Source of the DNA: Leptotrichia sp. oral taxon 223
GTDB taxonomy: Bacteria > Fusobacteriota > Fusobacteriia > Fusobacteriales > Leptotrichiaceae
Direction: 5' to 3'
Assembly (NCBI RefSeq): GCF_013394795.1
Contig: NZ_JABXYU010000001.1
Location: forward strand, 1,426,001-1,490,000
Length of the DNA: 64,000 bases
Numbering within the stretch: the first letter of the stretch is position 1; each line of letters opens with the position of its first letter. The notes beneath the pieces are model-generated. The model saw only the letters and a list, made by a program, of their open reading frames with translations, was not told the DNA's origin and ran no database searches. Shown one piece after another: positions 2,246 through 23,646 of this stretch. Position numbers and translations under genes: made by a program.

Positions 2246-2318
2246 TTTATATATAGTTGCTGTTTTATTTATTTTAAAACACGCTAATAAAATTTTAAAT
2301 AAAAAAGGAGGAGCTGCA

Positions 2319-3395: not shown

Positions 3396-3419
3396 AAATA
3401 AAAAGATAGGAGAATATAA

Positions 3420-4451
<1,032 letters not shown>

Positions 4452-4467
4452 ACGAGGGAGATTCTTA

Positions 4468-5397: not shown

Positions 5398-5400
5398 ATT

Positions 5401-6174: not shown

Positions 6175-7457
6175 TGGCGAAAGATGTTGTAATAAGCGTA
6201 AAAAATGTAGAAAAAAGTTTTAAAATATATAGTGATAAAGGGCATACCTTAAAAGAAAGGTTACTTTTTTTTAAACAAAGAAACAGCTATACAAGACATG
6301 AAGTTTTAAAAGGTGTAACTTTGGAAATAGAAAAAGGAGAAGTTGTAGGGTTAGTTGGACATAATGGATGTGGAAAAAGTACATTATTAAAATTAATGAC
6401 AAAGATAATATACTCGGATAAGGGGAAAATAGAGATAAATGGGAAAATTTCAAGTCTTTTGGAACTAGGAGCAGGATTTCATCCCGATATGACTGGAAGG
6501 GAAAATATTTATACAAATGCTTCTATATTTGGGCTTACTAAAAAGGAAATAGATGGCAGGCTAGATGAGATAATAGAATTTTCTGAGTTAGAAGAGTTTA
6601 TAGACAGTCCAGTTAGAACATATTCTTCAGGAATGTATATGAGATTAGCTTTTTCTGTTGCGATAAATGTTGATGCTGATATTTTATTGATTGATGAAAT
6701 TTTGGCGGTTGGTGATGCTAGGTTTCAGGCTAAATGTTTTAATAAAATGCTGGAATTGAAAAAAAGAGGAATTACAATTGTAATAGTGTCACATGATTTA
6801 GGTTCTATAGAAAGATTGTGCAATAGAGCTGTATGGATTGAAAATGGCAAAATAAAAGATGAAGGTATACCGCACGATATTGTTGCAGAATATTTAGATG
6901 ACATTATGAATAAAGATAAGAATGAAAAAATTAAAATAAAAGATCAAAGTAAAGTAAATGATCAGGAAAAGAAGAAAGAGGTATTCGAAGAAAAAAATAT
7001 TGAAAAAGAAGAAAAAAAGAAAAAAGATAAAAATCGAACTGGAAATAAAGATATTGAAATTATCAATATAAAGTTATTGAATGAAAAAAATGAAGTAAGT
7101 GATACTTATAATTCAGAAGACAAATTAAAAATAAAAGTTAAATATAAAAAGAATAATGAAAAACTAAAAGATTCTGTTTTCGGATTTGGAATTTTTAGGA
7201 ATGATGGACTGAATTGTTATGGTACAAATACGTTTATTGATAATTTTGAGAAAATTAAAATTCAGGATGAAGGAATTGTTGAAGTAGACATAGAAAGTAT
7301 TCAATTATTAGAGGGTAAGTATTATTTGGATATTGCTTTTCATGATGAATATGGAAAGCCATATGACTATATAAGAAAAGCAAATTTTTTTACCGTATAT
7401 AGTATTTTAAAAGATACTGGAATATTTAGAATAAATCATAAGTTTAGTCACTTATAG
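6174..7457 (+). CDS. wzt: ABC polysaccharide exporter ATPase with C-terminal glycan-binding domain (Wzt-like)
   Basis: Energises the Wzm permease. Residues ~1-240 are the ATPase: Walker A GHNGCGKST near residue 60, the YSSGMYMRLAFS signature near 143, Walker B ILLIDEILAVGD near 163 and a switch histidine in VSHD. A Lys/Glu-rich linker (about 245-290) leads to a ~135-residue C-terminal domain with FGFGIFRNDG and YGTNT, matching the Wzt carbohydrate-binding fold that in characterised systems reads a modification at the non-reducing end of the chain. Its presence implies export depends on a terminal cap, and the next gene encodes a methyltransferase that could make it. The start codon overlaps the end of wzm by one base. 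Confidence 0.93.
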   Translation: MAKDVVISVKNVEKSFKIYSDKGHTLKERLLFFKQRNSYTRHEVLKGVTLEIEKGEVVGLVGHNGCGKSTLLKLMTKIIYSDKGKIEINGKISSLLELGAGFHPDMTGRENIYTNASIFGLTKKEIDGRLDEIIEFSELEEFIDSPVRTYSSGMYMRLAFSVAINVDADILLIDEILAVGDARFQAKCFNKMLELKKRGITIVIVSHDLGSIERLCNRAVWIENGKIKDEGIPHDIVAEYLDDIMNKDKNEKIKIKDQSKVNDQEKKKEVFEEKNIEKEEKKKKDKNRTGNKDIEIINIKLLNEKNEVSDTYNSEDKLKIKVKYKKNNEKLKDSVFGFGIFRNDGLNCYGTNTFIDNFEKIKIQDEGIVEVDIESIQLLEGKYYLDIAFHDEYGKPYDYIRKANFFTVYSILKDTGIFRINHKFSHL

Positions 7458-7476
7458 AAAGGAATATATTAAAAGT

Positions 7477-8631
7477 ATGGAAATAAAAGAAAATGACTTT
7501 GAAATAAATATAGACAATATTAATGTTGAAGAAATAATGAATAAAATAAGACAAAATATAAAAGATAAAGGATACTTGGAAGAAGAAAAAATAAATAATT
7601 TTGATTTCACTCCTAAAATAAGTGAAGAAGATAATTTTAGATATGATTTAGATATATTAAACCAAGTTTGGAATATTAATTTAGAAAGAGAAGTTTTGTC
7701 TAGGAATAAATTATTTTCATTTTTAAAAAAAGTAATTAGAAAATTGACAAGATGGTATATAGTTCCGATGCTACAGGATCAAATAACATTTAATTCATAT
7801 GCTGTTAGAGCTATAAATAATTTGAATAAGCAATTAGATAAGAAAAATGAAGAAATAATAAAGCTATTAAACGAAAGGGATGAAGGAATAAAAAGATTAT
7901 TAGATGAAAAAGATGAAAGAATAAAAAAATTAGAAAAAATAGAAAAAGAAAATAATTTTGATATGGATTATCTTGCTTTTGAAGATAAATATAGAGGTTC
8001 TGAAGAAAGTATACAAAAATTACAGGAAAAATTTGTAAGGTTATATGTCGGAAAAGATAATATACTGGATATAGGTTGTGGAAGAGGAGAGTTTATGAAA
8101 ACTCTGCTAAATGCTGGAAAACAATATGTTTTTGGTATGGATATTAATCCGCAAATGGTTGAAAAATGTAAAAAAGATGGGTTATCAGTTGAATTAAAAG
8201 ATGGGGTAAATTATTTATATGACAATGATAATCTAAATTTAGGAGGAATATTTTCATCACAAGTTATAGAGCATTTGAAACCATCACAAATAGTAAAATT
8301 AATAAAAGGAGCATATAAAAATCTTCAAGAAGGAAGTCCTCTAATTCTTGAAACAATAAATCCAATGGCATTGGTGACACAAACTATGGCATATACACTG
8401 GATTTGACACATAGACAGTATGTTCATCCGTTTACAATTGAAATGCTGTTAAAGGAACATGGATTTAAAAAAGTAGAATTTATTTACAGTTCTCCTGTTG
8501 ATACAGAAGCTCCTGTACTTAAAGATAATGATATGGATCAAAAAGAATTAAAAAAATATAATGAAAAAATTAGAAGAATGCATGAAATATTATTTGGATA
8601 TCAAGATTATGCGGTAATTGCATGGAAGTGA
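7477..8631 (+). CDS. Coiled-coil class I SAM methyltransferase, possible chain terminator
   Basis: A 384-residue protein in three parts. Residues 1-110 are charged and contain a basic patch (FLKKVIRKLTRWY). Residues ~112-158 form heptad-like repeats (NEEIIKLLNERDEGIKRLL) expected to be a coiled coil. The rest is a Rossmann methyltransferase with SAM motif I LDIGCGRGEF near 197 and the acidic FGMDINP strand. It lies directly after wzt and overlaps no neighbour. In systems where Wzt has a sugar-reading domain, a methyltransferase (WbdD in E. coli O9a) caps the glycan and a coiled coil sets length. The same role is inferred here, though the domain order differs and no kinase domain is present. 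Confidence 0.8.
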   Translation: MEIKENDFEINIDNINVEEIMNKIRQNIKDKGYLEEEKINNFDFTPKISEEDNFRYDLDILNQVWNINLEREVLSRNKLFSFLKKVIRKLTRWYIVPMLQDQITFNSYAVRAINNLNKQLDKKNEEIIKLLNERDEGIKRLLDEKDERIKKLEKIEKENNFDMDYLAFEDKYRGSEESIQKLQEKFVRLYVGKDNILDIGCGRGEFMKTLLNAGKQYVFGMDINPQMVEKCKKDGLSVELKDGVNYLYDNDNLNLGGIFSSQVIEHLKPSQIVKLIKGAYKNLQEGSPLILETINPMALVTQTMAYTLDLTHRQYVHPFTIEMLLKEHGFKKVEFIYSSPVDTEAPVLKDNDMDQKELKKYNEKIRRMHEILFGYQDYAVIAWK

Positions 8632-8636
8632 TTGGT

Positions 8637-9830
8637 ATGAAAAAAATAGCATTTATAGTTCCGTGGTACGGAGATAAAATACCAGGTGGAGCTGAAACTG
8701 AAACGAGAAATATAGTTAAAAATTTGACTAAAAAAGGAATAGAAATAGAAATACTTACAACTTGTGTAGAAAAGTTTTCTTCGGATTGGAATAAAAATTA
8801 TTACAAAGAAGGTAATTATGAAGAAAGTGGAATAAAAATAAAAAGATTTAAAATTAGAAAAAGAGATAATAAGAAATTCGATAATGTGAATGCTTTACTT
8901 ATGCAAGGAAAAAGAATAAATTTTGAAGAAGAACAGATATTTTTTCAAGAAATGATTAGAAGTACAGATTTAGAGAATTATATTGAAAAAAATATAGATA
9001 GTTACTCATTATTTTGTTTTATTCCATATATGTTTGGAACGACATATTGGGGTGTGAAAAAAGTGAAAAATAAATCTGTGTTAATTCCTTGTTTACATGA
9101 TGAAGCCTATGCATATATGGAAAGTTTAAAAGAAATTTTTAAATTATCTTTAGGCTGCATTTTTTTAGCTAAGCCTGAAAAAGAATTAGCAGAAAAATTA
9201 TTTGGGTTAAAAGGGACTAAAAAGAAAGTTATAGGTGGCGGATTAGATATAAATATTTCAGAGGATTTTAGTGGATTTAAAGAAAAGTACAACTTAAAAA
9301 ATCCGTATGTTTTATATGCAGGAAGAAAAGATAAGGGTAAAAATATTGACTTATTAATAGAATATTTTAAAAAATTTAAAGAAAAAAATAGTGACAACTT
9401 AGACTTGGTTTTAATTGGAGGTGGACAACTTGAAATTCCAAAAGAAATAAAAGGTTGTGTTCATGATTTAGGCTTTATTAATATAGAAGATAAATATAAA
9501 GCCTATGCAAATGCAGTAACACTTGTTCAGCCATCAGTAAATGAAAGTTTTTCAATAGTTATAATGGAATCTTGGCTGACAGGAAGACCAGTGATTGTAA
9601 ATAATAATTGTGAAGTAACAAAAAATTTTGCAATGGAATCAAATGGTGGATTATATTTTAATAATTATTTTGAGTTTGAAGAAATTTTAAAATTTTATAT
9701 TAATAATCCAGATATAGTAAATAAGATGGGACAAAATGGTAAAGAATATGTTTTAAAAAATTTCGATAAAGAAATTGTTACAAAAAAATATATAGATTTC
9801 TTTAAAGAGTTAGTAGGTGAGAAAAATTAA
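8637..9830 (+). CDS. GT4-family glycosyltransferase
   Basis: Probable cytoplasmic retaining glycosyltransferase with a GT-B fold. The N-terminal domain has the glycine-rich acceptor loop IPGGAETETRNI. The C-terminal domain has VLYAGRKDKGKN near 220 and QPSVNESFSIVIMESW near residue 300, carrying the E-x7-E pattern of GT4 enzymes. I chose the ATG at 8637 (MKKIAFIVPWYG) because GGAAG sits 7 bases upstream; an in-frame ATG at 8622 would overlap the methyltransferase. It is a paralogue of the enzyme at 10892, sharing the opening fold and a LTTC motif. Its place behind the exporter suggests it builds the rhamnan-like chain. Donor and linkage are not visible. Confidence 0.88.
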   Translation: MKKIAFIVPWYGDKIPGGAETETRNIVKNLTKKGIEIEILTTCVEKFSSDWNKNYYKEGNYEESGIKIKRFKIRKRDNKKFDNVNALLMQGKRINFEEEQIFFQEMIRSTDLENYIEKNIDSYSLFCFIPYMFGTTYWGVKKVKNKSVLIPCLHDEAYAYMESLKEIFKLSLGCIFLAKPEKELAEKLFGLKGTKKKVIGGGLDINISEDFSGFKEKYNLKNPYVLYAGRKDKGKNIDLLIEYFKKFKEKNSDNLDLVLIGGGQLEIPKEIKGCVHDLGFINIEDKYKAYANAVTLVQPSVNESFSIVIMESWLTGRPVIVNNNCEVTKNFAMESNGGLYFNNYFEFEEILKFYINNPDIVNKMGQNGKEYVLKNFDKEIVTKKYIDFFKELVGEKN

Positions 9831-10890
9831 AATAATACAAGTTTTACCAACGATTAGCTATGGAGATGCAGTTAGCAATGATGCAATAAATATTGATAAA
9901 ATTTTAAAAAAAAATGGATATGAAACAGAGCTTTATGCAGAAAATATAGACAAAAAATTAAAAGATAAAGTTTTTAAAATAAGTAAATTAAAAAAAGTAA
10001 ATAAAAATGATATTTTAATTTATCATAAGTCAACTGGAACAGATTTAAGTTTTTGGCTGGAAAAATACAAATGTAAAAAGATAATGAGATACCATAATAT
10101 TACCCCAGGAAAATATTTAGAGAAATATAATAAATATCTGTATAATTTAGTGGAATATGGTAGAAAAGGTTTAGAATATGCAAGCAAATATTTCAATTAT
10201 AGTTTGGCAGTCTCAGATTATAATAAAAATGAACTTGATGAATTAAGATATAAAAATACAATGACATTACCTGTATTAATTCCTTTTGAAGACTACAAGA
10301 AAGAACCTGATAAAAAAGTTATAAAAAAATATTCAGATAGTAAAAAAAATATATTATTTGTAGGAAGAATTACTCCAAATAAGGCACAAGAAGATATAAT
10401 AAAATCTTTTTATTACTACAAAAAGTATGTAAATAAAGATTCAAGGTTAATTTTAGTTGGAAATGACAGCGGATTTGAAAACTATTCAGATTTATTGAAA
10501 AAATTAATTAAAGAATTGGGATTGGAAAGTGATGTTGTGTTTCCTGGACATATAAAATTTGAAGAGATATTGGCTTTCTATAGAGTGGCAGATTTATTTT
10601 TATGTATGAGTGAACATGAAGGATTTTGTGTACCATTGGTAGAAAGCATGTTTTTTGAAGTTCCAATTTTAGCATATAACAGTAGTGCAATAAAAGGTAC
10701 TTTGGGAAATAGTGGAATAATTGTAAATAAAAAAGATTATTTTTTAATATCAGAATTGATGAATCTTATTCTTTCAGATGAAAACATTAAAAAAGAAATT
10801 ATAAAGAATCAAAATAAAAGACTTGAGGATTTTCAGTTGGAAAAAGTAGAAAAAAAATTGTTAGAATTTATCAAGCGAATAGGTGGATAA
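9817..10890 (+). CDS. GT4-family glycosyltransferase
   Basis: Second of three consecutive GT4 enzymes, 357 residues. NILFVGRITPNKAQEDII near 165-185 opens the nucleotide-sugar domain and SEHEGFCVPLVESMF near 265 carries the E-x7-E pair. The N-terminal half contains ISYGDAVSNDA near residue 15, a variant of the acceptor loop seen in mannosyl- and rhamnosyltransferases. Translation starts at GTG 9817, overlapping the previous gene by 14 bases, so expression is probably coupled. The following gene begins one base after its stop. Activity on GDP-rhamnose is inferred from the operon only. Confidence 0.87.
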   Translation: MRKIKIIQVLPTISYGDAVSNDAINIDKILKKNGYETELYAENIDKKLKDKVFKISKLKKVNKNDILIYHKSTGTDLSFWLEKYKCKKIMRYHNITPGKYLEKYNKYLYNLVEYGRKGLEYASKYFNYSLAVSDYNKNELDELRYKNTMTLPVLIPFEDYKKEPDKKVIKKYSDSKKNILFVGRITPNKAQEDIIKSFYYYKKYVNKDSRLILVGNDSGFENYSDLLKKLIKELGLESDVVFPGHIKFEEILAFYRVADLFLCMSEHEGFCVPLVESMFFEVPILAYNSSAIKGTLGNSGIIVNKKDYFLISELMNLILSDENIKKEIIKNQNKRLEDFQLEKVEKKLLEFIKRIGG

Positions 10891-10891
10891 T

Positions 10892-12061
10892 ATGAAAAAA
10901 AAAATTTTATTTGTTGTTCAAAGATATGGTTTGGAAGTTAATGGTGGAGCAGAATTACATTGTAGACAATTAGCTGAAAGGCTTATAGGGGATTATGATG
11001 TATCAGTTTTAACTACTTGTGCAATAGATTATGTTACATGGAAAAATGAATATGAAGCGGGAACAGAGTATATAAATGGTGTAAAAGTTATAAGAAAAAA
11101 AGTTGATTTTGAAAGGAATCAAAATAAATTTAATAAAATATCTGAAAAAATAAATAATGATAAGGAGAATAAAGATTTAGGAATAGAATGGCAAAAAGCT
11201 CAAGGTCCTCATTCATCAGAATTAATAAAATATCTTAAAGATTATAAAAAAAATTATGACGTTATTATTTTTCTTACATACTTGTATTATACAACTTATT
11301 TTGGATTACAAATTGCACCAGAAAAGAGTATATTAATTCCTACAGCTCATGATGAACCACCGATATATTACAGTATTTTTAACGATACTTTTAACTTGCC
11401 GAACACAATATTATATTCAACTACAGCAGAAAGAAACTTTGTAAATAAAAAATTTAAAAATGATTATATAAAAAGTGATATAGTCGGTTTGGGTGTAGAT
11501 ATTGATGAAAATGCAGCAGATATAGATTTAGAAAAAGTATTTGGTATAAAAGATGATTACATTGTTTATATAGGTAGAATTGATGAATCTAAAGGTTGTA
11601 AAGAAATGTTTGAAGATTTTTTAGAATATAAAAAAATATACAATAATAATTTAAAATTGATATTAGCAGGTAAAGGTGTTATGAAAATACCTAAAAATAA
11701 GGATATAATTGCTCTAGGTTTTGTATCTGAAGAAGAAAAAGTTAATTTGATCAGAAAATCTAAATTATTGGTGTTACCTTCAAAATTTGAAAGTTTATCA
11801 TTATCTACTTTAGAAGCAATGTATTTAAAAGTTCCCGTTTTATTAAATGGGAAATGTGAAGTTTTAAAAATGCATGCTATACAAAGTAATGCAGGATTAT
11901 ATTTTGAAAGCAAATATGAATTTATTGAAGCACTGAATTTTATGATTAGTCATTCTAAAATAATGAGAAAAATGGGAGAAAATGGAATAAAATATGTTGG
12001 AAATAATTATAAATGGGATGTTGTAATGAAGAAATTAAAAAATGCTATTGAAGATATATAA
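10892..12061 (+). CDS. GT4-family glycosyltransferase
   Basis: A 389-residue GT-B enzyme starting ILFVVQRYGLEVNGGAELHC, the glycine-rich acceptor loop of GT4. IVYIGRIDESKGC near 225 begins the donor-binding half and LPSKFESLSLSTLEAMY near 298 is its donor-site motif. The ATG at 10892 has AGGTGG five bases upstream; an in-frame GTG at 10883 would overlap the preceding gene. It resembles the enzyme at 8637 along most of its length, so the two probably arose by duplication. With three polymer-building transferases after an exporter, the layout parallels the wbpX-wbpY-wbpZ arrangement of Pseudomonas common antigen, but orthology cannot be claimed. Confidence 0.87.
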   Translation: MKKKILFVVQRYGLEVNGGAELHCRQLAERLIGDYDVSVLTTCAIDYVTWKNEYEAGTEYINGVKVIRKKVDFERNQNKFNKISEKINNDKENKDLGIEWQKAQGPHSSELIKYLKDYKKNYDVIIFLTYLYYTTYFGLQIAPEKSILIPTAHDEPPIYYSIFNDTFNLPNTILYSTTAERNFVNKKFKNDYIKSDIVGLGVDIDENAADIDLEKVFGIKDDYIVYIGRIDESKGCKEMFEDFLEYKKIYNNNLKLILAGKGVMKIPKNKDIIALGFVSEEEKVNLIRKSKLLVLPSKFESLSLSTLEAMYLKVPVLLNGKCEVLKMHAIQSNAGLYFESKYEFIEALNFMISHSKIMRKMGENGIKYVGNNYKWDVVMKKLKNAIEDI

Positions 12062-12083
12062 AAAAATAATATAAGGAGTTAAA

Positions 12084-14249
12084 ATGATAAAAAAAGGTAT
12101 ATGGAAAGAGTTTATTGTAGTAAGTATTGTGACTTTATTACTTACATTTATAATTTTACAGATTTGGGATATGAAGTTTAGTATACCATTGTCTTATCAG
12201 GGAGATGGGCTAGCAACAGCATATTTAGTTGAGACAATAAAGGAATCTGGATGGTGGTTTCAAAATAGTAGAGTAGGAGCTCCATTTGGAGGTACAACAT
12301 ATGATTTTTCAGCTTTTTATTTTGATAGTTTCAATTTTTTTATATTTAAAATAATAGTATTGTTTGTTAAAAACTGGGGAAAAGCAATTAATACTTTCTA
12401 TATATTTTTATTTCCAGTTACAGCGTTAACAAGTCATTACACAATGAGAAAATTAAAAATAAATTTTTATATATCAATGTTATCTTCGATGTATTTTACA
12501 TTTTTACAGTATAGATTTTTAAGAGGAACATCACATTTATTTTTATCAACGTATTATTTGATTCCTCTTATAACATTATTATTTTATTGGTTATATACAG
12601 ATTGTGATATACTAGAGATAAAAAAAGGGTTTTTTAAGAATAAAAAGAACATATTTTCAATTATATTACTAGTTTTATTATCTTTATCAGGTATATATTA
12701 TGCTTTTTTTTCGTGTTTCTTTTTTATGGTTATTTATTTGATAAAAATAAATAAAAATAATATAGTTAAAATTTCTAAAAAATTCGGATTAATATTTATT
12801 ACGATTTTTAATACAGGTTTTTTAGCATATATTCCTGGAATATTATATAAATTAAAAGTAGGAGCGAACATAGAAAGTCCTCAAAGACATGTTTATGAAA
12901 CAGAATTATATGCTTTTAGAATATCAAAATTATTTATTTCTCAGAAAATATTTTATTTAAAGGGAGGTTATTTTGAAAAAATTCAAAAAGGTATAATAAA
13001 TTATTTTAATTTTTTTAAAGACACAGAAGGAATGGAATACTTAGGAATAATAGCAATAATGGGATTCATTTATTTATTATGGATAACTTTAAAAAAAGAA
13101 AAAACAGACAATAATCTAATAAATTTATTAGCATTATTGAATATAACAGGAGTATTATTGGCAGTTGCCTCAGGATTTGGTACTATTTTTGCAATACTTG
13201 TATCAGCTCAAATAAGAGCTTATAACAGAATATCTGTATTTATTGCATATTTTTGTATATTAGCAATAGCTATGAAAATAAATGATTTAATAAAAGGAAA
13301 AAATAAAAGACTTTGGTATCCATTATTGTCAATATTATTTTTATTTTCGATTTGGGAGCAGATTCCATTCTGTTCAGGAATAACTTATTCTAATTCGACG
13401 AAAAAATATAGAAAAAAATTTGATAGTGATAAAATTTTTATTTTACAAATAGAAAAAATATTAGGAAAAAATGGAATGGTTTTTCAACTTCCATATTATA
13501 AATTTCCTGAAATGGGAAATATTAAAAACTTGGGTGATTATGAAATGTTTAAGGGATATTTATTTTCCGAAAACTTAAAATGGAGTTATGGAGGTTATAG
13601 AGGACGTGAGTCAGATTTATGGAATAGATACATAACTTCTTTATCCATTGACGAAATGCTGGAAAAAATTTCAATAGCAGGATTTAATGGAATATATATT
13701 GATCGAAAGGCTTATACTAAGGATGAATATATGAAGTTAGAAAATGAAATAAGTAGTATCATAAAAGAAAAGGCATATATTAGTAATAATAAAGATTTAG
13801 TTTTTTTTAATTTAACAAATTATAGTAATAACTTGAAAAATAAATATTCCAAAGAACAGCTAGAAAAAGAAAAGACCAAAGTATTAAAAGTTTTAATAGC
13901 CTCAGAGGGATTTTATGGAAATGAGCAGTTAAAAAATAGAAAATGGAAATGGATGAAGAATAAAGCTATAATAACATTAGAAAATAATACATCTGCGGAT
14001 GTAAATTATAATTTAAAAGTGGATGTTTTTTCGGAGTATCCTGAAAATTCAAAATTAATAATTGAATTTGATGGAAAAAAAGAAGAGTATATAATCAATA
14101 ATAAAGGAAAAACATTAGATTTATCGTTTAATATGAAAAAAGGGAAAAATACAATAAAATTTTATACTAATACTAAACGTGTAAATTCAGGTCTTGATAC
14201 GAGAGAGCTGTACTTAAGATTTGAAAATATTAAAGAAAATATAGACTAA
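12084..14249 (+). CDS. Large multi-membrane-span protein, YfhO-like / GT-C-fold candidate
   Basis: A 721-residue integral membrane protein. About eleven or twelve hydrophobic segments fill residues 10-445, followed by a ~270-residue extracytoplasmic region. The first loop has YQGDGLATAYLVE near 32-44 and NSRVGAPFGG near 58-67, acidic and aromatic features typical of GT-C glycosyltransferases that use polyprenyl-phosphate sugars. The overall plan recalls YfhO, which works with a GtrB/CsbB-like transferase and a GtrA/GtcA-like flippase; both partners are encoded nearby (16166 and 19895). I infer it attaches a lipid-linked sugar to the glycan outside the cytoplasmic membrane. A precise family assignment needs a profile search. 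Confidence 0.7.
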   Translation: MIKKGIWKEFIVVSIVTLLLTFIILQIWDMKFSIPLSYQGDGLATAYLVETIKESGWWFQNSRVGAPFGGTTYDFSAFYFDSFNFFIFKIIVLFVKNWGKAINTFYIFLFPVTALTSHYTMRKLKINFYISMLSSMYFTFLQYRFLRGTSHLFLSTYYLIPLITLLFYWLYTDCDILEIKKGFFKNKKNIFSIILLVLLSLSGIYYAFFSCFFFMVIYLIKINKNNIVKISKKFGLIFITIFNTGFLAYIPGILYKLKVGANIESPQRHVYETELYAFRISKLFISQKIFYLKGGYFEKIQKGIINYFNFFKDTEGMEYLGIIAIMGFIYLLWITLKKEKTDNNLINLLALLNITGVLLAVASGFGTIFAILVSAQIRAYNRISVFIAYFCILAIAMKINDLIKGKNKRLWYPLLSILFLFSIWEQIPFCSGITYSNSTKKYRKKFDSDKIFILQIEKILGKNGMVFQLPYYKFPEMGNIKNLGDYEMFKGYLFSENLKWSYGGYRGRESDLWNRYITSLSIDEMLEKISIAGFNGIYIDRKAYTKDEYMKLENEISSIIKEKAYISNNKDLVFFNLTNYSNNLKNKYSKEQLEKEKTKVLKVLIASEGFYGNEQLKNRKWKWMKNKAIITLENNTSADVNYNLKVDVFSEYPENSKLIIEFDGKKEEYIINNKGKTLDLSFNMKKGKNTIKFYTNTKRVNSGLDTRELYLRFENIKENID

Positions 14250-14272
14250 TAAGAAGTAGGAGGTTATTTAAA

Positions 14273-15049
14273 ATGAAAGTTGTTTTACTTGCGGGAGGAT
14301 TCGGCACTAGATTAAGTGAAGAAACTTATGCAATTCCTAAACCTATGTTGGAAATAGGAGGTAGGCCTGTATTATGGCACATAATGAAAATATATTCCTA
14401 TTATGGGTTCAATGAATTTATCATTTGTTGTGGATATAAAGGGTATGTAATTAAAGAATATTTTGCCAATTATTTTTTGCATGCCAGCGATGTCACAATA
14501 GATATAAAAAATAATAATATTGAAGTTCATAATACAAAATCTGAACCATGGAAAATAACACTTGTGGATACAGGTTTAGAAACAATGACAGGTGGACGTA
14601 TAAAAAGAATTCAGAAATATGTTGAAAATGAACCTTTTTTATTGACTTACGGTGATGGCGTATCAGATGTAAATATAAAAGATTTAGTAGAATATCATGA
14701 AAAAACTGGTAAATTATTAACTGTGACAGCTTATAAGCCACAAGGAAGATTTGGAGCATTGGATTTAGATGAAAAAGATGACGTTAAAAGTTTTCTTGAA
14801 AAACCTGCAGGAGATAATATGTGGATTAATGCAGGATATTTTGTTTGTCAACCTGAAGTATTTGATTATATAAAAGACGGCGATCAAACTGTTTTTGAAA
14901 AAAGGCCTCTTGAAGAATTAGCCAAAGACGGTAATATGAATGCGTTTAAACATTCAGGATTTTGGAAACCTATGGATATATTAAGAGACAACAAGGAATT
15001 AAATGCTATGTGGGACAAAAATGAAGCTCCATGGAAAGTATGGGAATAA
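14273..15049 (+). CDS. rfbF: Glucose-1-phosphate cytidylyltransferase
   Basis: Makes CDP-glucose from glucose-1-phosphate and CTP. The 258 residues match the RfbF family: the nucleotide-binding LAGGFGTRLSEETYAIPKPM at residues 5-24, VLWHIMK near 35, TLVDTGLETMTGGRIKR near 98, TYGDGVSDV near 125 and WINAGYFV near 185. A strong AGGAGG precedes the ATG. The next gene, rfbG, uses the product directly. The CTP enzyme differs from rfbA at 1349, so the locus makes at least three nucleotide-sugar types: dTDP, GDP and CDP. Confidence 0.95.
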   Translation: MKVVLLAGGFGTRLSEETYAIPKPMLEIGGRPVLWHIMKIYSYYGFNEFIICCGYKGYVIKEYFANYFLHASDVTIDIKNNNIEVHNTKSEPWKITLVDTGLETMTGGRIKRIQKYVENEPFLLTYGDGVSDVNIKDLVEYHEKTGKLLTVTAYKPQGRFGALDLDEKDDVKSFLEKPAGDNMWINAGYFVCQPEVFDYIKDGDQTVFEKRPLEELAKDGNMNAFKHSGFWKPMDILRDNKELNAMWDKNEAPWKVWE

Positions 15050-15063
15050 TTTTAGGAGGAAAT

Positions 15064-16134
15064 ATGGAATATTTTAATGGAGTCTATAAAGGAAAAATGG
15101 TTTTAGTAACAGGACATACTGGTTTTAAGGGTTCTTGGTTATCAATATGGTTAAAGGAATTAGGGGCAAATGTTATTGGGTATGCACTGGATCCGTATAC
15201 TCAAAAAGATAACTTTGTTTTTTCGGGTCTAGAAAATAAAATAGTTGACATTAGAGGAGACATAAGAGATAAAAAACATTTAAAAGAAGTTTTCGATAAA
15301 TACAAGCCGGAATTTGTATTTCATTTAGCTGCACAACCATTAGTAAGGCTATCTTATGACAACCCTGTTGAAACATACGAAACAAATGTTATGGGAACTA
15401 TAAATGTATTGGAATGTATTAGAGAAACACCAGAGGTTAAAATAGGAATAATGATAACAACTGATAAATGTTATGAAAATAAAGAACAGATATGGGGGTA
15501 TAGAGAAACAGATCCTTTAGGTGGATATGATCCGTATTCATCTTCAAAAGGTGCAGCTGAAATAGCAATAGGTTCCTGGAGAAGTTCCTACTTTAATCCA
15601 AAAGATTATGATAAGCATGGAAAGTCTATTGCAAGTGTCAGGGCAGGAAATGTTATTGGTGGTGGAGACTGGTCATTAGATCGTGTAATTCCTGACTGTA
15701 TAAGAGCTCTTGAAAAAGGCGAACCAATAAATATAAGAAACCCAAAAGCTATAAGACCATGGGAGCATGTTTTAGAGCCATTGAATGGTTACCTGTCATT
15801 AGGCCAAAAAATGTATGAAGAACCAAATAAATATTCAGAAGCATGGAATTTTGGTCCAAATATTGAAGGGATTGTTCCAGTGTGGGAAATAGGCAAAAAA
15901 ATAATAGAAAATTATGGGAAAGGTTCGTTGAAAGATGTTTCAAATCTAAATGAAATTCATGAAGCTCAGCTTCTTGCTTTAGATGTTACTAAAGCTAAAT
16001 TCAGATTGAACTGGAAATCTAGATGGAATATAGATAAAACAATAGAGAAAACAGTTGAATGGTATAAAAAATATAATACTGAAGATGTTTATGAGTTATG
16101 TGTGAAACAGATTAGGGAATTTATTGAAAGTTAA
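15064..16134 (+). CDS. rfbG: CDP-glucose 4,6-dehydratase
   Basis: Converts CDP-glucose to CDP-4-keto-6-deoxyglucose, the branch point for CDP-dideoxyhexoses and branched sugars. Rossmann motif GHTGFKGSWLS lies near residues 15-25, AAQPLVRLSYDNP near 85, TDKCYEN near 130 and the catalytic YSSSKG near 158. I start at ATG 15064, six bases after TAGGAGGAA; the upstream in-frame ATG at 15031 lies inside rfbF. The usual follow-on enzymes for 3,6-dideoxyhexoses (RfbH 3-dehydrase and its reductase) are absent from the window. Instead, an aldolase and a TPP enzyme follow, which suggests another fate for the keto sugar. Confidence 0.94.
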   Translation: MEYFNGVYKGKMVLVTGHTGFKGSWLSIWLKELGANVIGYALDPYTQKDNFVFSGLENKIVDIRGDIRDKKHLKEVFDKYKPEFVFHLAAQPLVRLSYDNPVETYETNVMGTINVLECIRETPEVKIGIMITTDKCYENKEQIWGYRETDPLGGYDPYSSSKGAAEIAIGSWRSSYFNPKDYDKHGKSIASVRAGNVIGGGDWSLDRVIPDCIRALEKGEPINIRNPKAIRPWEHVLEPLNGYLSLGQKMYEEPNKYSEAWNFGPNIEGIVPVWEIGKKIIENYGKGSLKDVSNLNEIHEAQLLALDVTKAKFRLNWKSRWNIDKTIEKTVEWYKKYNTEDVYELCVKQIREFIES

Positions 16135-16165
16135 ATAAAAAATTAGGAAAATAGAGGTTATTTAT

Positions 16166-17125
16166 ATGAAAATATCAATAGTTATACCCTGTTATAATGA
16201 AGAAGATAATGTGATACCTATATGTCACGCTTTAAAGGAGATGTTTGCCAAAGATCTCCCAAAATATGAATATGAATTAATATTTATAGACAATAAATCA
16301 AAAGATAACACAAGAGAGAGACTTCGTTTATTGTGTAAAGAAGATTTACGTGTAAAAGCTATTTTTAATATAAAGAATTTTGGACAAAGCAACAGTCCTT
16401 TTTATGCATTATTTCAAAGTTCAGGAGATTGTACAGTATTTTGTTCTGCTGATTTTCAAGATCCTATTGAAATGATACCTGTTATGGTACATGAATGGGA
16501 AAAAGGACATAAAGTTATTACAACAATAAGAACAGGAACTAAAGAAAATAAGTTTATGTATTTTTTGAGAACGGTATATTACAAACTAATTAAAGCAATG
16601 AGTAAAGAAGAAATGATAGAACATTTTACTGGTTTTGGATTATACGATAAAAGCTTTATTAGTATATTAAAAAATTTAAATGAACCTATGCCTCTTTTAA
16701 GAGGATTAGTAGCTGAGTATGCTCCTGATCATAAATCAATAGAATATGAGCACCAACTTAGAAAGAGTGGAAAAAGTTCAAATAATTTTTTCACTCTATT
16801 TGACTTAGCGATGCTTAGTTTTACTAGCTACACCAAAAGTGGTCTTAGAATAGCAACTTTTTTTGGATTTGCAGTATCTTTAATCAGTATTTTAATTTCT
16901 ATAGTATACTTTGTTTTAAAAATTTTGTTCTGGAATAAATTTGTTATAGGAACAGCTCCTATATTGATAGGTGTATTTTTTTTAGGAGGACTTCAATTGT
17001 TTTTTATAGGACTGCTTGGAGAATATATTATGAATATGAATTTGCGAATTATGAATAGACCACTGGTAATCGAGGAAGAAAGAATAAATTTTGACGAAAA
17101 TAAAAAAGATGAACAGGAGAACTAG
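16166..17125 (+). CDS. GT2 polyprenyl-phosphate glycosyltransferase (GtrB/CsbB-like)
   Basis: Would load a sugar from a nucleotide donor onto undecaprenyl phosphate on the cytoplasmic face. Residues 1-225 are a GT2 domain opening VIPCYNEEDNV, with NFGQSNSPFYALF near 72 and the metal/donor motif SADFQDP near 95. Two hydrophobic segments (about 232-255 and 266-290) anchor the C-terminus, as in GtrB, CsbB and DPM1-like enzymes. It is 319 residues, the usual length. It belongs to the rfbF-rfbG-aldolase-TPP series, and the next ATG follows its stop immediately. With the GtrA-like flippase at 19895 it makes a plausible lipid-linked sugar branch. Confidence 0.9.
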   Translation: MKISIVIPCYNEEDNVIPICHALKEMFAKDLPKYEYELIFIDNKSKDNTRERLRLLCKEDLRVKAIFNIKNFGQSNSPFYALFQSSGDCTVFCSADFQDPIEMIPVMVHEWEKGHKVITTIRTGTKENKFMYFLRTVYYKLIKAMSKEEMIEHFTGFGLYDKSFISILKNLNEPMPLLRGLVAEYAPDHKSIEYEHQLRKSGKSSNNFFTLFDLAMLSFTSYTKSGLRIATFFGFAVSLISILISIVYFVLKILFWNKFVIGTAPILIGVFFLGGLQLFFIGLLGEYIMNMNLRIMNRPLVIEEERINFDENKKDEQEN

Positions 17126-18166
17126 ATGAAAAAGATAAAAATTCTTGATTGTACATTAAGAGATGGTGGACTAGGCTTAGAAGATGCTAATAAAACAGGA
17201 ATAAAAACAGAGATTTTTGATAAAAATATAATTAATAAAGTAATCTTATCTTTTAGCCAAACTGATTTAGATATTATAGAATTAGGTTCGATTGAAATAA
17301 CAAATAATGACATGACTAAATATTGCATTTATAAGTCTATAGAAGATATTTCCCAAAAAATACCATTAAACCATTCTAAAAATCAGATGTATGTAGCCTT
17401 ATTTAGAGGACCAGATACGCCTATTGAAAATATACCAGATTGGAATGAAAATTATTGCAGAGGAATTAGAGTTATTATTAGATATTCAGAATTACAAAAA
17501 TCTCTTGATTTCTGCAAAGCGTTGTCTAAAAAAGGTTATAAAGTTTTTGTACAGCCAATGCTTACAATGAGATATACTGAGGAAGAATTGGATTTAATTA
17601 TCAAAGCCTCTAATGAGATGAAGGCCTACGTTTTATATTTTGTAGACAGTTATGGATATATGACTGAACAAGATGTAATTTATTTTTTAAAAAAATATGA
17701 CGGTAGCTTAAATTCAAAAATAAAAATAGGATTTCATAGTCATAATAATTTAAATTTAGCATTTTCAAATGTAAAGGCTTTTATTAATTATGAAACTAAT
17801 AGAGATATTATAATAGATTCCTGCGTATTAGGAATGGGGCAAGGAGCAGGAAATTTACAAACGGAGATTATTGCAGATTATTTAAATAGATATCATGATA
17901 AGAATTATAATTATGAAATGATATTGGAAATTTGTGAATTAATTGAGAAATTTTCTCCAAAACCTTTATGGGGTTATACCGTAACTACTTTATTGCCGGC
18001 TCTTCATAAAGTAGCGTACAAATATTCTATTAATTTAAGAGAACGGTATGGCTTATCTTATATAAAAATAAATTATTTATTAAAAAATATTCCAGAAAAT
18101 TTAAGACACAGGTATACACAGGAAAATTTAGAGAAACTTTTGAATTTATTGAAGAAGGGCGAATAA
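17126..18166 (+). CDS. DRE-TIM metalloaldolase, 4-hydroxy-2-oxovalerate aldolase (DmpG)-like
   Basis: A 346-residue member of the HMGL/DmpG superfamily, whose enzymes make or break C-C bonds at 2-oxo acids using a divalent metal. DCTLRDGG at residues 8-15 supplies the substrate arginine and metal aspartate, FVDSYGYM follows near 172, and GFHSHNN near 202-208 supplies the metal histidines. The C-terminal ~60 residues, with PALHKVAYKY and RERYGLSY, resemble the extra domain of DmpG. DmpG normally channels acetaldehyde to a dehydrogenase (DmpF), which is absent here; the neighbour one base downstream is a TPP enzyme. A role in sugar modification is inferred from location. Confidence 0.8.
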   Translation: MKKIKILDCTLRDGGLGLEDANKTGIKTEIFDKNIINKVILSFSQTDLDIIELGSIEITNNDMTKYCIYKSIEDISQKIPLNHSKNQMYVALFRGPDTPIENIPDWNENYCRGIRVIIRYSELQKSLDFCKALSKKGYKVFVQPMLTMRYTEEELDLIIKASNEMKAYVLYFVDSYGYMTEQDVIYFLKKYDGSLNSKIKIGFHSHNNLNLAFSNVKAFINYETNRDIIIDSCVLGMGQGAGNLQTEIIADYLNRYHDKNYNYEMILEICELIEKFSPKPLWGYTVTTLLPALHKVAYKYSINLRERYGLSYIKINYLLKNIPENLRHRYTQENLEKLLNLLKKGE

Positions 18167-18167
18167 T

Positions 18168-19907
18168 ATGAAAGTTGCCGATTATTTAGTTGGAAGTCTA
18201 ATAAAGATGGGAATTACAGATGTTTTTGGTATACCTGGCGGAGTTGTTCTTGAATTTGTATACGCTTTAAATAAAAGAACAGAAAATATAAAAACGCACC
18301 TTTTACATCATGAACAAAATGCTGGTTTTGCAGCTCTTGGATATGCACAATCTACTCAAAAGATGGGGGTAGCGTTTGGAACAAAAGGTCCTGGAATTTT
18401 AAATTTAACAAGTTCCATAGCAGAAGCTTATTCTGATTCTATTCCTTCGTTGTTTATAACAGCACACTCACTTGATGATACGAGTGATAAGATGAGATTT
18501 ATTGAAGATCAGGAAATAAATATAATTCCTATTTTTGAATCTATTACAAAGTATTGTGTTAGAGTAAATAATGCAGATTCTTTTATTGATGAATTGAAAA
18601 AATCTATCTATTTAGCTAATTCAGGAAGGAAAGGACCAGTTGTAATTGATATATCTTCAAAAATTTGGAGTAGTGAAGTTTTAGAAACAGAATTAGAAAA
18701 AGAAGTTTTAGAAAATGTGAATGATTCCAAAAATACTTTTGAAGATGCTGTTTTATCAATTGAAAAAAATCTTAATGAATCAAAAAGACCATTATTACTT
18801 ATAGGTGATGGAATAAGGCAGGCAGGAATTGAAAAAGAAGTTATTGAATTTTCTGAAAAAAATAAAATTCCAGTTATCTATAGTAGAGGGTGTCAAGATA
18901 TTATGTCAGGTTCAAAGATGGCTTTTGGTTATGTAGGAAGTCATGGCATTAGATATACGAATTATATATTATCAGAAGCAGACTTGTTAATTAGTCTTGG
19001 AAATAGATTATCTTTTCCTATAAAATCAAAAAGCTTTCTAGATATTTTTAATAAATGTAAATTGATTAGATGTGATATAGATGAAAATGAATTCATACGA
19101 GAAATTCCAAATAGTAAAAACTTCCAATGTAATGTAAAAGATGTTTTGAAAGAACTTCTTAATAAAAATATAGAAAATAATAATATATCCGAATGGTTAA
19201 ATACCTGTAATAGAATAAAAGAAATTCTTTGGGATAGTGATACTAATACGCCTGTAAACGAAATAGCGCATTTATTAGATAGTCTTAGAGATACAGGAGC
19301 TATTGTTGGAGATGTTGGAAATAATGAATTTTGGTTATCAAGGGCTTATGAATTTTCTAAAAATAGTAATAAGATATTGTTTTCAAGATCGCTTGGAACA
19401 ATGGGATGTTCAATTGGAAAAGCAATTGGTGCATATTATTCTTTGAAAAAAAATATTGTTTGTTTTATAGGTGATCAGGCACTTCAAATGAATCCGCAAG
19501 AATTACAGTTTATTTCTAATAATAAATTACCTATATGGATTGTAGTTATTAATAATAATTCTTCAGGAATGATTAAATCAAGACAGATTAGAAGATATAA
19601 TTCAGAATTTTTATTAACAACAGAAGAAACAGGTTATAGTGTAGTTAATTTAGAAAAACTTTCTAATGTATATGATTTTAGCTATATTCAAGTAGAATCA
19701 ATAGAAGATATTGATAATAAATTAATAGATTGTGACTATACAAAACCATTATTTATTAATTTTATAGTTGATGAAAACATAGATCTGGAAATATCTTTAC
19801 CTATAGGAAATAGTTGTAAAGATATGGAGCCTAAACTAAGTAAAGAAATTTATGAAAAATTGAATTTAAATATAGATTATAAAAAGGGGAAAAAATGCTC
19901 GAATTAA
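18168..19907 (+). CDS. Acetolactate-synthase-like TPP-dependent enzyme
   Basis: A 579-residue enzyme with the three-domain plan of the ALS/pyruvate decarboxylase family. The pyrimidine domain carries FGIPGG and the cofactor-activating Glu in HHEQNAGFAALGYAQ (Glu49). The middle domain has the GDGIRQAG strand. The TPP/Mg2+ motif runs from GDQALQMN near residue 435 to NNNSSGM. ALS itself would pair with ilv genes, whereas this one lies between an aldolase and a flippase in a glycan operon. YerE of Yersinia, a similar TPP enzyme, adds a two-carbon unit from pyruvate to a CDP-keto-deoxysugar, and rfbF/rfbG supply a related substrate here. That analogy is inference; FAD binding could not be judged. 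Confidence 0.82.
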   Translation: MKVADYLVGSLIKMGITDVFGIPGGVVLEFVYALNKRTENIKTHLLHHEQNAGFAALGYAQSTQKMGVAFGTKGPGILNLTSSIAEAYSDSIPSLFITAHSLDDTSDKMRFIEDQEINIIPIFESITKYCVRVNNADSFIDELKKSIYLANSGRKGPVVIDISSKIWSSEVLETELEKEVLENVNDSKNTFEDAVLSIEKNLNESKRPLLLIGDGIRQAGIEKEVIEFSEKNKIPVIYSRGCQDIMSGSKMAFGYVGSHGIRYTNYILSEADLLISLGNRLSFPIKSKSFLDIFNKCKLIRCDIDENEFIREIPNSKNFQCNVKDVLKELLNKNIENNNISEWLNTCNRIKEILWDSDTNTPVNEIAHLLDSLRDTGAIVGDVGNNEFWLSRAYEFSKNSNKILFSRSLGTMGCSIGKAIGAYYSLKKNIVCFIGDQALQMNPQELQFISNNKLPIWIVVINNNSSGMIKSRQIRRYNSEFLLTTEETGYSVVNLEKLSNVYDFSYIQVESIEDIDNKLIDCDYTKPLFINFIVDENIDLEISLPIGNSCKDMEPKLSKEIYEKLNLNIDYKKGKKCSN

Positions 19908-20299
19908 TCAAAAAAAATATAAAAAGGTATAGTAATTTTTTTAAATTTGCTATAGTCGGATTTGGGAATTTATTTGTTTCTTTATTGACTTACTATATCC
20001 TTGTATATTTTCATGTAAATTATCAAATTGCTAATATAGGAGGTTTTATAACAGGAACTATAAATGGGTATATTTGGAATAAAATATGGGTATTTAAAAA
20101 TTCTTCGAAAAGTTTTTCTTCTATTATAAAATTTTATCTATCTTATTTAACTACTTGGCTTTTAAGTGCTATTTTATTATATATATGGATTGAACTGTTA
20201 GGAATTTCTGATATAATAGCTCCAGTTATAAATGTTTTTATAACAACTCCTATAAATTATTTAATGAATAAATGTTGGGTATTCAAAAATAAACAGTAG
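19895..20299 (+). CDS. GtrA-like flippase
   Basis: A 134-residue membrane protein with four hydrophobic segments (about 18-38, 43-60, 78-98 and 108-125). The family motifs FAIVGFGNL near 20 and NGYIWNKIWVFK near 52-63 are present, and a second NKCWVFK closes the C-terminus. GtrA-family proteins are believed to flip undecaprenyl-phosphate-linked sugars. The start overlaps the end of the TPP gene by 13 bases, behind GGGGAAAAA. With the GtrB-like GT2 (16166) and the YfhO-like protein (12084) it gives the three parts known from O-antigen glucosylation and from CsbB/GtcA/YfhO systems. Confidence 0.88.
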   Translation: MLELIKKNIKRYSNFFKFAIVGFGNLFVSLLTYYILVYFHVNYQIANIGGFITGTINGYIWNKIWVFKNSSKSFSSIIKFYLSYLTTWLLSAILLYIWIELLGISDIIAPVINVFITTPINYLMNKCWVFKNKQ

Positions 20300-20327: not shown

Positions 20328-22106
20328 ATGTTATTAGAACGAATAAATAATCCTAAGGATTTAAAAAAATTAAAAAAAGAAGAATTAGAAATTTTAGCAA
20401 TAGAAATAAGAAAAGCATTACTAAATAGAATGACAAATTATTCTAAAAAAGGGCATGTGGGTTCTAATATGGGGGTAGTTGAATTAACAATAGCTCTTCA
20501 TTATGTTTTTAATTCTCCTATTGATAAAATTTTATTTGATGTATCTCACCAGTGCTATACACATAAAATACTTACGGGAAGAAAAGATGGTTTTATTTAT
20601 GAAGAAAAATTTAAAACAATAGGTGGATATACTGATCAAGATGAAAGTGAACATGATTTTTTTAAAGTAGGGCATAGTTCAACTTCCATAAGCCTTGCTG
20701 CTGGAATGGCTAGAGCAAGAGATTTAAAAGGAGAAAATGAAAATATAATTGCTCTTATTGGAGATGGAGCTTTAGGTGGAGGACTTGCCTTTGAAGGTTT
20801 AAATAGTGTAGCAGAACAGGGTACAAATTTAATTATAATAGTAAATGATAATAATCAATCTATAGCAGAAAATCATGGTGGGCTTTATAAAAATCTAAAA
20901 GAACTTAGAGAAAATAACGGACAAGCTAAAAATAACTATTTTAAATCTTTAGGATTGGATTATAAATATTTAGATGAAGGACATGATATTAAAAAACTTA
21001 TAGAATTATTTGAAAGTGTTAAAGATATTGATCACCCTATAGTTTTACATATAAAAACTATAAAAGGAAAAGGTCTTCCTTATGCAGAAAAAGATGTTGA
21101 AAATTGGCATGTTTTTGGGAATTTTAATCCAGAAACAGGAAAACCAAAGTCAATTTCACCTATACCAGAAAACTATGCAGCAATTACTCATGATTATTTA
21201 GTTGAAAAAATGAAAAAAGATAAGATGGTTTTTTTTATCACTGCTGGAACACCTTCAACAGCAGGATTTGGGCAATTACAAAGAGAAGAATTGAAAAGTT
21301 TTAATTTACAAAGACAATATATTGATGTAGGAATAGCAGAAGAATGTGCTACTACATTTTCATCAGGAATAGCTAAAAATGGCGGTAAACCAGTATTTTG
21401 TGTAATGAGTACATTTTTACAGAGAACTTATGATCAAATTTTGCATGATTTAGCAATTAATAAGAATCCTGCTGTACTACTTGTTTTTGCTGGTTCATTA
21501 AAAGGAATGGATGCTATAACACATTTAGGATATTTTGATATACCAATGATTTCTAATATTCCAAATGTAGTGTATCTTGCTCCAACTACAAAAGAAGAGT
21601 ATTTAGCGATGTTAGATTGGGGAATAGAACAAAATGATAATCCAGTAGTAATTAAAGTACCAAGTTGGACAGTAAGACATTCTGAAAAAGAACCAGATAA
21701 AGATTATTCAAATTTGAATACTTTTAAAATAGAAGAAAATGGTGGTGAAGTAGCAATAGTAGCATTAGGAGAATTTTTCTATTTAGGAAAAGAAGTAGAA
21801 GAGCTTTTGAAAGAAAAATCAGGAATAAAAGCAACATTAATAAATCCAAGATTTATAACAGGACTTGATGACAAAATGTTAGAAGATTTAAAAGAAAATC
21901 ATAAACTTGTTGTAACATTAGAAAGTGGACAAAAAGAAGGTGGATTTGGACAAAAAATATCTGCATTCTATTCAACTTCTGAGATGAAAGTTTTAAATGT
22001 AGGAGCTAAAAAAGAATTTACAAACGAAGTACCTTATGATGAATTTTTTATAGATAATAGACTTACAAAAGAACAAATCGTAGAAGATATACTTAAGTTT
22101 TTATAG
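20328..22106 (+). CDS. DXS/transketolase-like TPP enzyme in glycan operon
   Basis: A 592-residue single-chain TPP enzyme with the domain order of 1-deoxyxylulose-5-phosphate synthase (DXS). GHVGSNMGVVEL near 44 has the DXS-type active histidine. GDGALGGGLAFEGLN near 144 to NDNNQSI is the TPP motif. WHVFGNFNP near 263 holds another conserved histidine, and the catalytic Glu lies in GIAEECATTF near 337. The loop that reads DRAGLVG in DXS is here FAGSLKG, losing the Asp and Arg used for the phosphate substrate. It is also slightly shorter than DXS (~620). Mevalonate-pathway genes at 36.6 kb remove the need for DXS in isoprenoids. It is the last gene before a terminator, so it probably serves the glycan module. 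Confidence 0.8.
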   Translation: MLLERINNPKDLKKLKKEELEILAIEIRKALLNRMTNYSKKGHVGSNMGVVELTIALHYVFNSPIDKILFDVSHQCYTHKILTGRKDGFIYEEKFKTIGGYTDQDESEHDFFKVGHSSTSISLAAGMARARDLKGENENIIALIGDGALGGGLAFEGLNSVAEQGTNLIIIVNDNNQSIAENHGGLYKNLKELRENNGQAKNNYFKSLGLDYKYLDEGHDIKKLIELFESVKDIDHPIVLHIKTIKGKGLPYAEKDVENWHVFGNFNPETGKPKSISPIPENYAAITHDYLVEKMKKDKMVFFITAGTPSTAGFGQLQREELKSFNLQRQYIDVGIAEECATTFSSGIAKNGGKPVFCVMSTFLQRTYDQILHDLAINKNPAVLLVFAGSLKGMDAITHLGYFDIPMISNIPNVVYLAPTTKEEYLAMLDWGIEQNDNPVVIKVPSWTVRHSEKEPDKDYSNLNTFKIEENGGEVAIVALGEFFYLGKEVEELLKEKSGIKATLINPRFITGLDDKMLEDLKENHKLVVTLESGQKEGGFGQKISAFYSTSEMKVLNVGAKKEFTNEVPYDEFFIDNRLTKEQIVEDILKFL

Positions 22107-22116
22107 AAAAATTCAA

Positions 22117-22160
22117 AAAAATGCGATAAAAAATTATATTATCGCATTTTTACATTTTTT
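22117..22160 (+). terminator. Rho-independent terminator of polysaccharide operon
   Basis: A perfect 13-base-pair stem (22117-22129 with 22139-22151, core ATGCGATAA/TTATCGCAT) with a 9-base loop, followed by a T-rich run. It lies 11 bases after the stop of the DXS-like gene and closes the ~20 kb operon. Confidence 0.9.
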
Positions 22161-22216: not shown

Positions 22217-23646
22217 ATGAAATTAAAGTCTATAGAATTAAAGAATTTCAAAAATATAAGTGATTTAAAAATAGAATTTAAAAGTAATAATTTATCAGGA
22301 ATATACGGACTTAATAGAACTGGAAAAATTTCTATTGTTGAATCTTTACAAATACTTCAAAGATATTTTAGAATAGAAAAAGAGCCTTTAGAAGAAAAAG
22401 AATTAATAAGGCAAATAAAAAAAGTAATGAAAATAGGAGAGGATGTACTATCAATTCAGATTGAACTGGAAGGAGAAAAATATAGATATCAATTTTCAGT
22501 TTCTTTTGAAAGAGATGTATTCGATAAATTCGTATTGTAGAAAGAATTTAAGGAAAAGGAAATAGATAATAATAGAAAAAAATACAGAAGTTTAATTTTA
22601 TTCGATAATTCTCAAGAATCTGAATTACCACAATTAATTTTTAAGGGAAAAAATTCTGAATGCAATAAAATAATCAATGAAATTTTAGCAGCTCAGAATA
22701 TAAAAAAGCAAACATTGTACACTGAAAATACAGAATGAATAGCTATCTGAATTTAATGTTGAATCAAGTTCAAAAATTAGAAATGAGAAAAAATAAAGTT
22801 CTTGAGTATTTTACAAAAATATTCAAAAAGATAAATTTATTAAGAAATTATATTTGCGAGATATTTTTGATTACCTTTCAGAATCAGATAATGTTTAATA
22901 TAGGAAGTTTAATAAAAATGAATATCCATGCGGATAAGGTGGTATATAAAGAAGAAAATGCACATGGAGAATTACCAATGTTTTTAAATTCTGAAACAAA
23001 TTACTATCCTGAAGAAATTGCAGATATAATTATAAATACAATAGAACAGGTAAACGGTATTTTTGAAACAGTAGTATCTGATTCAAAACTTTATTGTAAA
23101 GAAGAAGGAGAAAAAATAAGGGAAAACGGAGTAAAAGAAAAAGCATTAAATCTGTATATAAAAAAATAGATGATAAAGAAATATATATTGAAAATGAATC
23201 ATCAGGAATAAAAAAGATAATTTCAATTTTATCGGTACTAGTTTATTATGTTAAAGAAGAAGCCTTAGTTGTAATAGATGAACTAAATACACATATATTT
23301 GAATATTTACTGGCAATTATTTTAAAAAATATATCAGAAATTGCAAAAGGGCAATTAATCTTTACTGCACATAATTTATCACCTCTGGAAAGATTAGAAA
23401 AGGAAAACATAGTAAATAACTTCAATCGAAAAGGATAAAGTAAACTATAGTTATTTAAAAAATGTAAGTAAAACAACAAATTTGCGGCAAAAATATATCA
23501 GATCACAGGCTATCAGCGAAGATAATATTACACCATTAAATTTAAATGAGTCAGCATTGGAAATGTATTTGAAAAAGTTGGTGAAATAAATTGAAGGTGA
23601 AAATATAACTGCATTGATAGAAGAAATAGAAAATAATTTTAAATAA
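22217..23646 (+). pseudogene. Decayed AAA ATPase (SMC/OLD-type)
   Basis: A complete ATPase ORF no longer exists, but its parts lie in order. Residues 1-107 (22217-22540) read LKSIELKNFKNISDLKIEF, then a Walker A-like GLNRTGKIS in which the usual NGxGKS is altered, then an in-frame TAG. The same frame resumes to 22738. Later frames carry a stretch with IADIIINTIEQVN (to 23169), the signature-like ESSGIKKIISIL, Walker B LVVIDELNTH (about 23270) and LIFTAHNLSPLERL. The tail crosses two more stops and ends near 23646. At least four disruptions are needed, so it is non-functional. Such ATPases are often defence or plasmid-linked; no partner nuclease is visible. Confidence 0.85.

Follow-up and report, generated by a model that had tools for sequence, protein, structure and literature searches.

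The gene at positions 20328–22106 (+) of the analysed window, i.e. the whole 64,000-nucleotide stretch of the Leptotrichia sp. oral taxon 223 genome, is dxs-like in sequence, but its product is probably a pyruvate-dependent ThDP carboligase that helps to build a branched CDP-sugar and does not supply DXP for isoprenoids or vitamins. This assignment is based on sequence and gene context. The protein belongs to the DXPS-like subfamily, which is already known as a class of sequence and structure; what is new is that members of this subfamily can be linked to a cassette for branched sugars, into which they were recruited twice.

Family placement and acceptor pocket

The reading frame is intact (ATG start, 592 aa) and the encoded protein contains the Pfam domains DXP_synthase_N, Transket_pyr and Transketolase_C, arranged in the DXS order. 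The best NCBIfam model was NF008968/PRK12315 (854 bits, cut-off 510). The protein also passes the model of true dxs, TIGR00204 (479.5 versus a cut-off of 465.95), and an automatic dxs label is therefore to be expected. Its predicted structure (mean pLDDT 86.5) was most similar to 9KPQ (TM-score 0.94, 58% identity over the full length), a 2025 entry whose title refers to a ThDP-dependent enzyme of the DXPS-like subfamily, and the next-best matches were DXS structures, with TM-scores of approximately 0.8–0.87. Phylogenetic analysis placed the protein outside canonical DXS and within the NF008968/PRK12315 subfamily (support 100/100). In the papers searched we found neither a function for the DXPS-like subfamily nor any text on 9KPQ. 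The Lactococcus dxsA gene, whose product shows 34% identity to DXS, may belong to the same subfamily. Its deletion was without a bacteriocin phenotype (PMC7864038).

Alignment with E. coli DXS revealed that H49, H80, H122, D152, N181, H299, E370, R398 and H431 are kept. Together with the Pfam result, this bears out the original prediction, made from the window sequence, that the DXS fold motifs, the active histidine and the catalytic Glu are retained. The protein thus resembles the DXS enzymes of E. coli and D. radiodurans in fold, domain order and ThDP/pyruvate catalytic residues, but differs from them in lacking R420, R478 and part of the 183–240 loop. In the window protein (its residues numbered by way of the E. 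coli DXS alignment), R420, the Arg of the DRAG motif, is replaced by A388, R478 by S446, and Y392 by M360. R420, R478 and Y392 form the glyceraldehyde-3-phosphate pocket of E. coli DXS, in which the R478A substitution gives a Km for glyceraldehyde-3-phosphate of 1400 uM (PMC11019550).

The substrate-binding loop of the window protein reads VFAGSLKGMDAITH, and 9KPQ has the same altered loop, where it reads FWGTLSGMNDVTH. The original prediction had singled out this loop (as FAGSLKG) and its lost Asp and Arg. The motif is real and meaningful, but it is not particular to this copy: only 2 of the 116 subfamily rows (window included) have Arg at position 420, and only 3 have it at position 478. The altered loop was therefore dropped as a peculiarity of the window copy. 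Judging from this alignment, the loss of both glyceraldehyde-3-phosphate arginines appears to mark the whole subfamily, from which they are almost always gone. An arginine at E. coli position 99 was considered as extra evidence and discarded because of the uncertain local alignment in this region.

The window also carries genes for mevalonate kinase (36582–37472, +; TIGR00549) and diphosphomevalonate decarboxylase (37494–38480, +; TIGR01240), both above the model cut-offs, as had been predicted. Our search of the genome (99.3% complete) for DXP users covered dxr, ispG, pdxJ and thiG. There was no match for dxr, ispG or pdxJ, and thiG was matched only below the cut-off; thus, no use for DXP was found, and the lack of a detected DXP-using pathway in this genome is a further difference from E. 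coli and D. radiodurans. Two further claims of the original prediction agree with these results: that the protein is not an isoprenoid DXS (no dxr or ispG, no DXP-using vitamin gene found, and no glyceraldehyde-3-phosphate arginines), and that annotation as dxs is misleading, since TIGR00204 is passed and yet both the acceptor arginines and a DXP-using pathway are missing. In contrast, mevalonate use by the host was abandoned as an explanation of the gene: dxr is present in 13 of the 16 tested hosts carrying the subfamily, whose members occur in both MEP and mevalonate hosts.

One further gene of the NF008968 subfamily, and thus a second dxs-like copy, was detected elsewhere in the genome (G000:C1, about 279665–281411; loci L002 and L059). 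It is split by one extra T, as judged from a relative with an intact gene; this may be a real frameshift or a sequencing error. The neighbours of this locus are common to genomes of the same genus.

The glycan operon and known branched-sugar systems

The DXS-like gene is the last in a tight operon, which distinguishes it from 9KPQ and NF008968 as such. The operon starts with rfbF, encoding a glucose-1-phosphate cytidylyltransferase (14273–15049, +; TIGR02623, 421 bits, cut-off 300), overlapped by rfbG, encoding a CDP-glucose 4,6-dehydratase (15031–16134, +; TIGR02622, 500 bits, cut-off 278). They are followed by genes for (i) a GT2 glycosyltransferase resembling polyprenyl-phosphate transferases of the PgfS/ArnC type (16166–17125, +; PF00535; best NCBIfam model PgfS, 157 bits, below the cut-off), (ii) an HMGL-like aldolase of the 4-hydroxy-2-oxovalerate aldolase kind (17126–18166, +; PF00682; TIGR03217, 69 bits, below the equivalog cut-off), (iii) a YerE/ErwE-like ThDP enzyme of the acetolactate-synthase (decarboxylase) superfamily (18168–19907, +; three TPP_enzyme domains; TIGR00118, 300 bits, below the cut-off of 538), (iv) a GtrA/DPMS-type membrane protein (19895–20299, +; PF04138) and (v) the DXS-like enzyme. 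Neighbouring reading frames between rfbF and the DXS-like gene either overlap or have gaps of 0–31 bases, and directly 3' of the DXS-like gene lies an intrinsic-terminator-like hairpin of 13 pairs with a T-rich tail (22117–22151, +; fold −14.1 kcal/mol, z −4.28).

RfbF and RfbG account for the synthesis of CDP-4-keto-6-deoxyglucose. YerE transfers two carbons derived from pyruvate to a CDP-4-keto sugar, and the preferred donors of ErwE in the corresponding reaction are 4-hydroxy-2-oxo acids (review PMC12247030). The presence of a 4-hydroxy-2-oxovalerate-type aldolase beside a YerE-like enzyme, both assigned by family and context, fits the ErwE case. The operon shares with the yersiniose and erwiniose pathways CDP-glucose, CDP-4-keto-6-deoxyglucose and a ThDP enzyme of the decarboxylase superfamily, here a putative carboligase, and its aldolase may, by family, be able to make 4-hydroxy-2-oxo acids. 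However, reading of the translated ORFs of the operon revealed no obvious E1-type 3-dehydratase or YerF-type reductase, and a DXS-like carboligase is present in addition; on this reading of the ORFs, the operon is no copy of either pathway. Transketolases have also been proposed as sugar-branching enzymes in miharamycin and amipurimycin synthesis (PMC12247030). There, too, a ThDP enzyme of the transketolase superfamily adjoins sugar-nucleotide genes, but the transketolases of these antibiotic clusters are split, whereas the window enzyme is of the DXS type.

Upstream of the operon (1349–9830), the translations included GDP-mannose 4,6-dehydratase-type sugar-nucleotide enzymes, an ABC exporter pair and several glycosyltransferases. 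This gene content makes export of the polymer through an ABC transporter probable. Directly past the terminator (22217–23169) are remnants of an AAA/SMC-like ATPase gene (an N-terminal AAA_15 part, then a second fragment), which looks broken.

Recurrence of the cassette

A genome scan with the subfamily alignment identified relatives in bacteria from the gut, the rumen and the mouth, spread over many phyla. Most of the sampled members have no neighbours in common with the window and seem solitary; thus, what the subfamily originally catalysed cannot be deduced from this locus alone. Even the closest relatives of the window protein (73–74% identical) have none of the operon's genes nearby. Two loci found in this way, from Lachnospiraceae (L099) and Gemmiger (L137), do have rfbF, rfbG, the aldolase and the YerE-like gene adjoining a DXS-like gene. 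When the aldolase alone was used to search samples of Fusobacteriota, Clostridia and Lachnospiraceae, one further close aldolase was obtained, in genome G763 (L197), and its cassette also has a DXS-like gene at its end. Four cassettes with the set rfbF, rfbG, aldolase, ThDP carboligase and DXS-like gene are therefore known. The DXS-like gene is present in 4/4 of them, although this count is biased, as L099 and L137 were found via the DXS-like protein; the G763 case is free of this bias. Samples of Oscillospirales and Bacteroidia contained no further close aldolase, viral contigs contained no aldolase relatives, and plasmids only a single distant match (30% identity).

The window aldolase is 55–59% identical to those of L099, L197 and L137, with values of 55–58% for L099 and L137, and the YerE/ErwE-like protein shows 39–46% identity to its counterparts in these three Clostridia loci. 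The Gemmiger locus additionally carries a GT2 gene adjoining the DXS-like gene, whose product is 62% identical to the window GT2, and a GtrA gene.

In the tree of the DXS-like proteins the window copy and Leptotrichiaceae-type relatives form a clade with 100/100 support; in the sampled contexts of these relatives no gene of the operon occurs. The three Clostridia cassette copies group together in another part of the subfamily. The idea that the cassette arose once and took the DXS-like gene along with it was rejected (log-likelihood loss 213, AU p 5.5e-58). Rejection of the grouping of the four genes by the AU test implies that the DXS-like gene was recruited to the cassette at least two times, a pattern for which hitchhiking is a poor explanation. 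Placement of the window organism in Fusobacteriales is in line with genome G005, from this order, in which one gene is almost the same as a gene of Cetobacterium somerae.

Among the loci around more distant aldolases, one (L199/L215) has a DXS-like gene nearby, and L210 and L211 carry split transketolase genes. In the latter two (about 8400–19500 in each) the aldolase, a 599-aa ThDP enzyme, an SDR and the split transketolase genes lie together, which may represent a parallel solution, with a transketolase replacing the DXS-like enzyme. A second glycan context was found for Clostridia-group members of the subfamily: in L151 (7129–12797) and L199/L215 (10339–14322 in L215) the DXS-like gene is accompanied by genes for an RpiB-like isomerase, an IspD-like cytidylyltransferase and an NAD-dependent epimerase (57%, 38% and 46% identity, respectively, between L151 and L215). 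Considered beside the cassette loci, these sets indicate that the Clostridia branch of the subfamily occurs in two kinds of cytidylyl-sugar loci.

Proposed function and its significance

We propose that the DXS-like enzyme most likely uses ThDP to decarboxylate pyruvate or a closely related 2-oxo acid and joins the resulting two carbons to an aldehyde that is not glyceraldehyde-3-phosphate and is not gripped by a phosphate-binding arginine pair, to give an acyloin. This product would supply or extend a side chain, to be attached to the keto sugar by the aldolase and the YerE-like enzyme. The three enzymes would thus assemble the branch carbons of a CDP-linked 4-keto-6-deoxy sugar, presumably destined for a surface glycan. 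The SDR encoded beside the L197 cassette, which resembles acetoin/butanediol dehydrogenases (below the cut-off), gives a hint of an acyloin product. The acceptor may be a sugar intermediate of the locus, as originally predicted, and this draws support from the context (the conserved CDP-sugar/aldolase/YerE-like cassette and two recruitments).

Pocket residues common to the window and Clostridia cassette copies were sought and not found: the window protein has A388, D395 and S446, versus N, N and R/K in the Clostridia copies. This difference means that use of the same acceptor is unsupported by common residues and that identical chemistry is not established. A wider proposal is put forward with somewhat less than even confidence: on at least two occasions an enzyme of the DXS superfamily became a dedicated carboligase for branched sugars linked to nucleotides, and a single side chain is then the joint work of an aldolase and two ThDP enzymes from different superfamilies.

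The enzyme may instead keep a general role of the solitary subfamily members (e.g. conversion of pyruvate to an acyloin or acetaldehyde in central metabolism) and merely happen to end a glycan operon. We regard this as unlikely, although the lack of shared neighbours in the closest relatives and in most scanned members is in its favour, and the window copy could replace the frameshifted native-type copy. It is at odds with the presence of a DXS-like gene in four of four aldolase/YerE-like cassettes, with two independent recruitments, and with the pocket itself: at positions 392, 420, 427 and 478 the window protein differs from all seven sister sequences, whereas this is true of only 17% of columns overall (small numbers in this comparison).

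Much less probable is the formation of DXP or another 1-deoxyketose phosphate as a sugar building block, activated later by a cytidylyltransferase. This would parallel L151 and L215, where genes for an IspD-like cytidylyltransferase and an RpiB-like isomerase accompany a subfamily member, but the window cytidylyltransferase is by family specific for glucose-1-phosphate, and none of the operon's genes was noticed to be IspD-like. The least probable reading, by a small step, is a true DXP synthase serving thiamine or pyridoxal synthesis: the TIGR00204 score and the fold shared with DXS structures are outweighed by the loss of both phosphate-holding arginines, the results for pdxJ, dxr, ispG and thiG in this nearly complete genome, and the location in a glycan operon.

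In many bacteria of the gut, rumen and mouth, members of this subfamily carry the label dxs; some of these hosts use mevalonate, and for them the label implies a pathway that they lack. A dxs match alone is insufficient evidence for MEP pathway genes or for targets of MEP drugs. The lost glyceraldehyde-3-phosphate site and the tie of some members to branched-sugar operons offer a concrete way into an enzyme subfamily that has been an orphan and that is likely to yield new catalysts of carbon-carbon bond formation. If the twice-recruited branched-sugar carboligase is confirmed, host-associated bacteria would possess, in the DXPS-like subfamily, a pool of pyruvate carboligases that differ in their acceptors.
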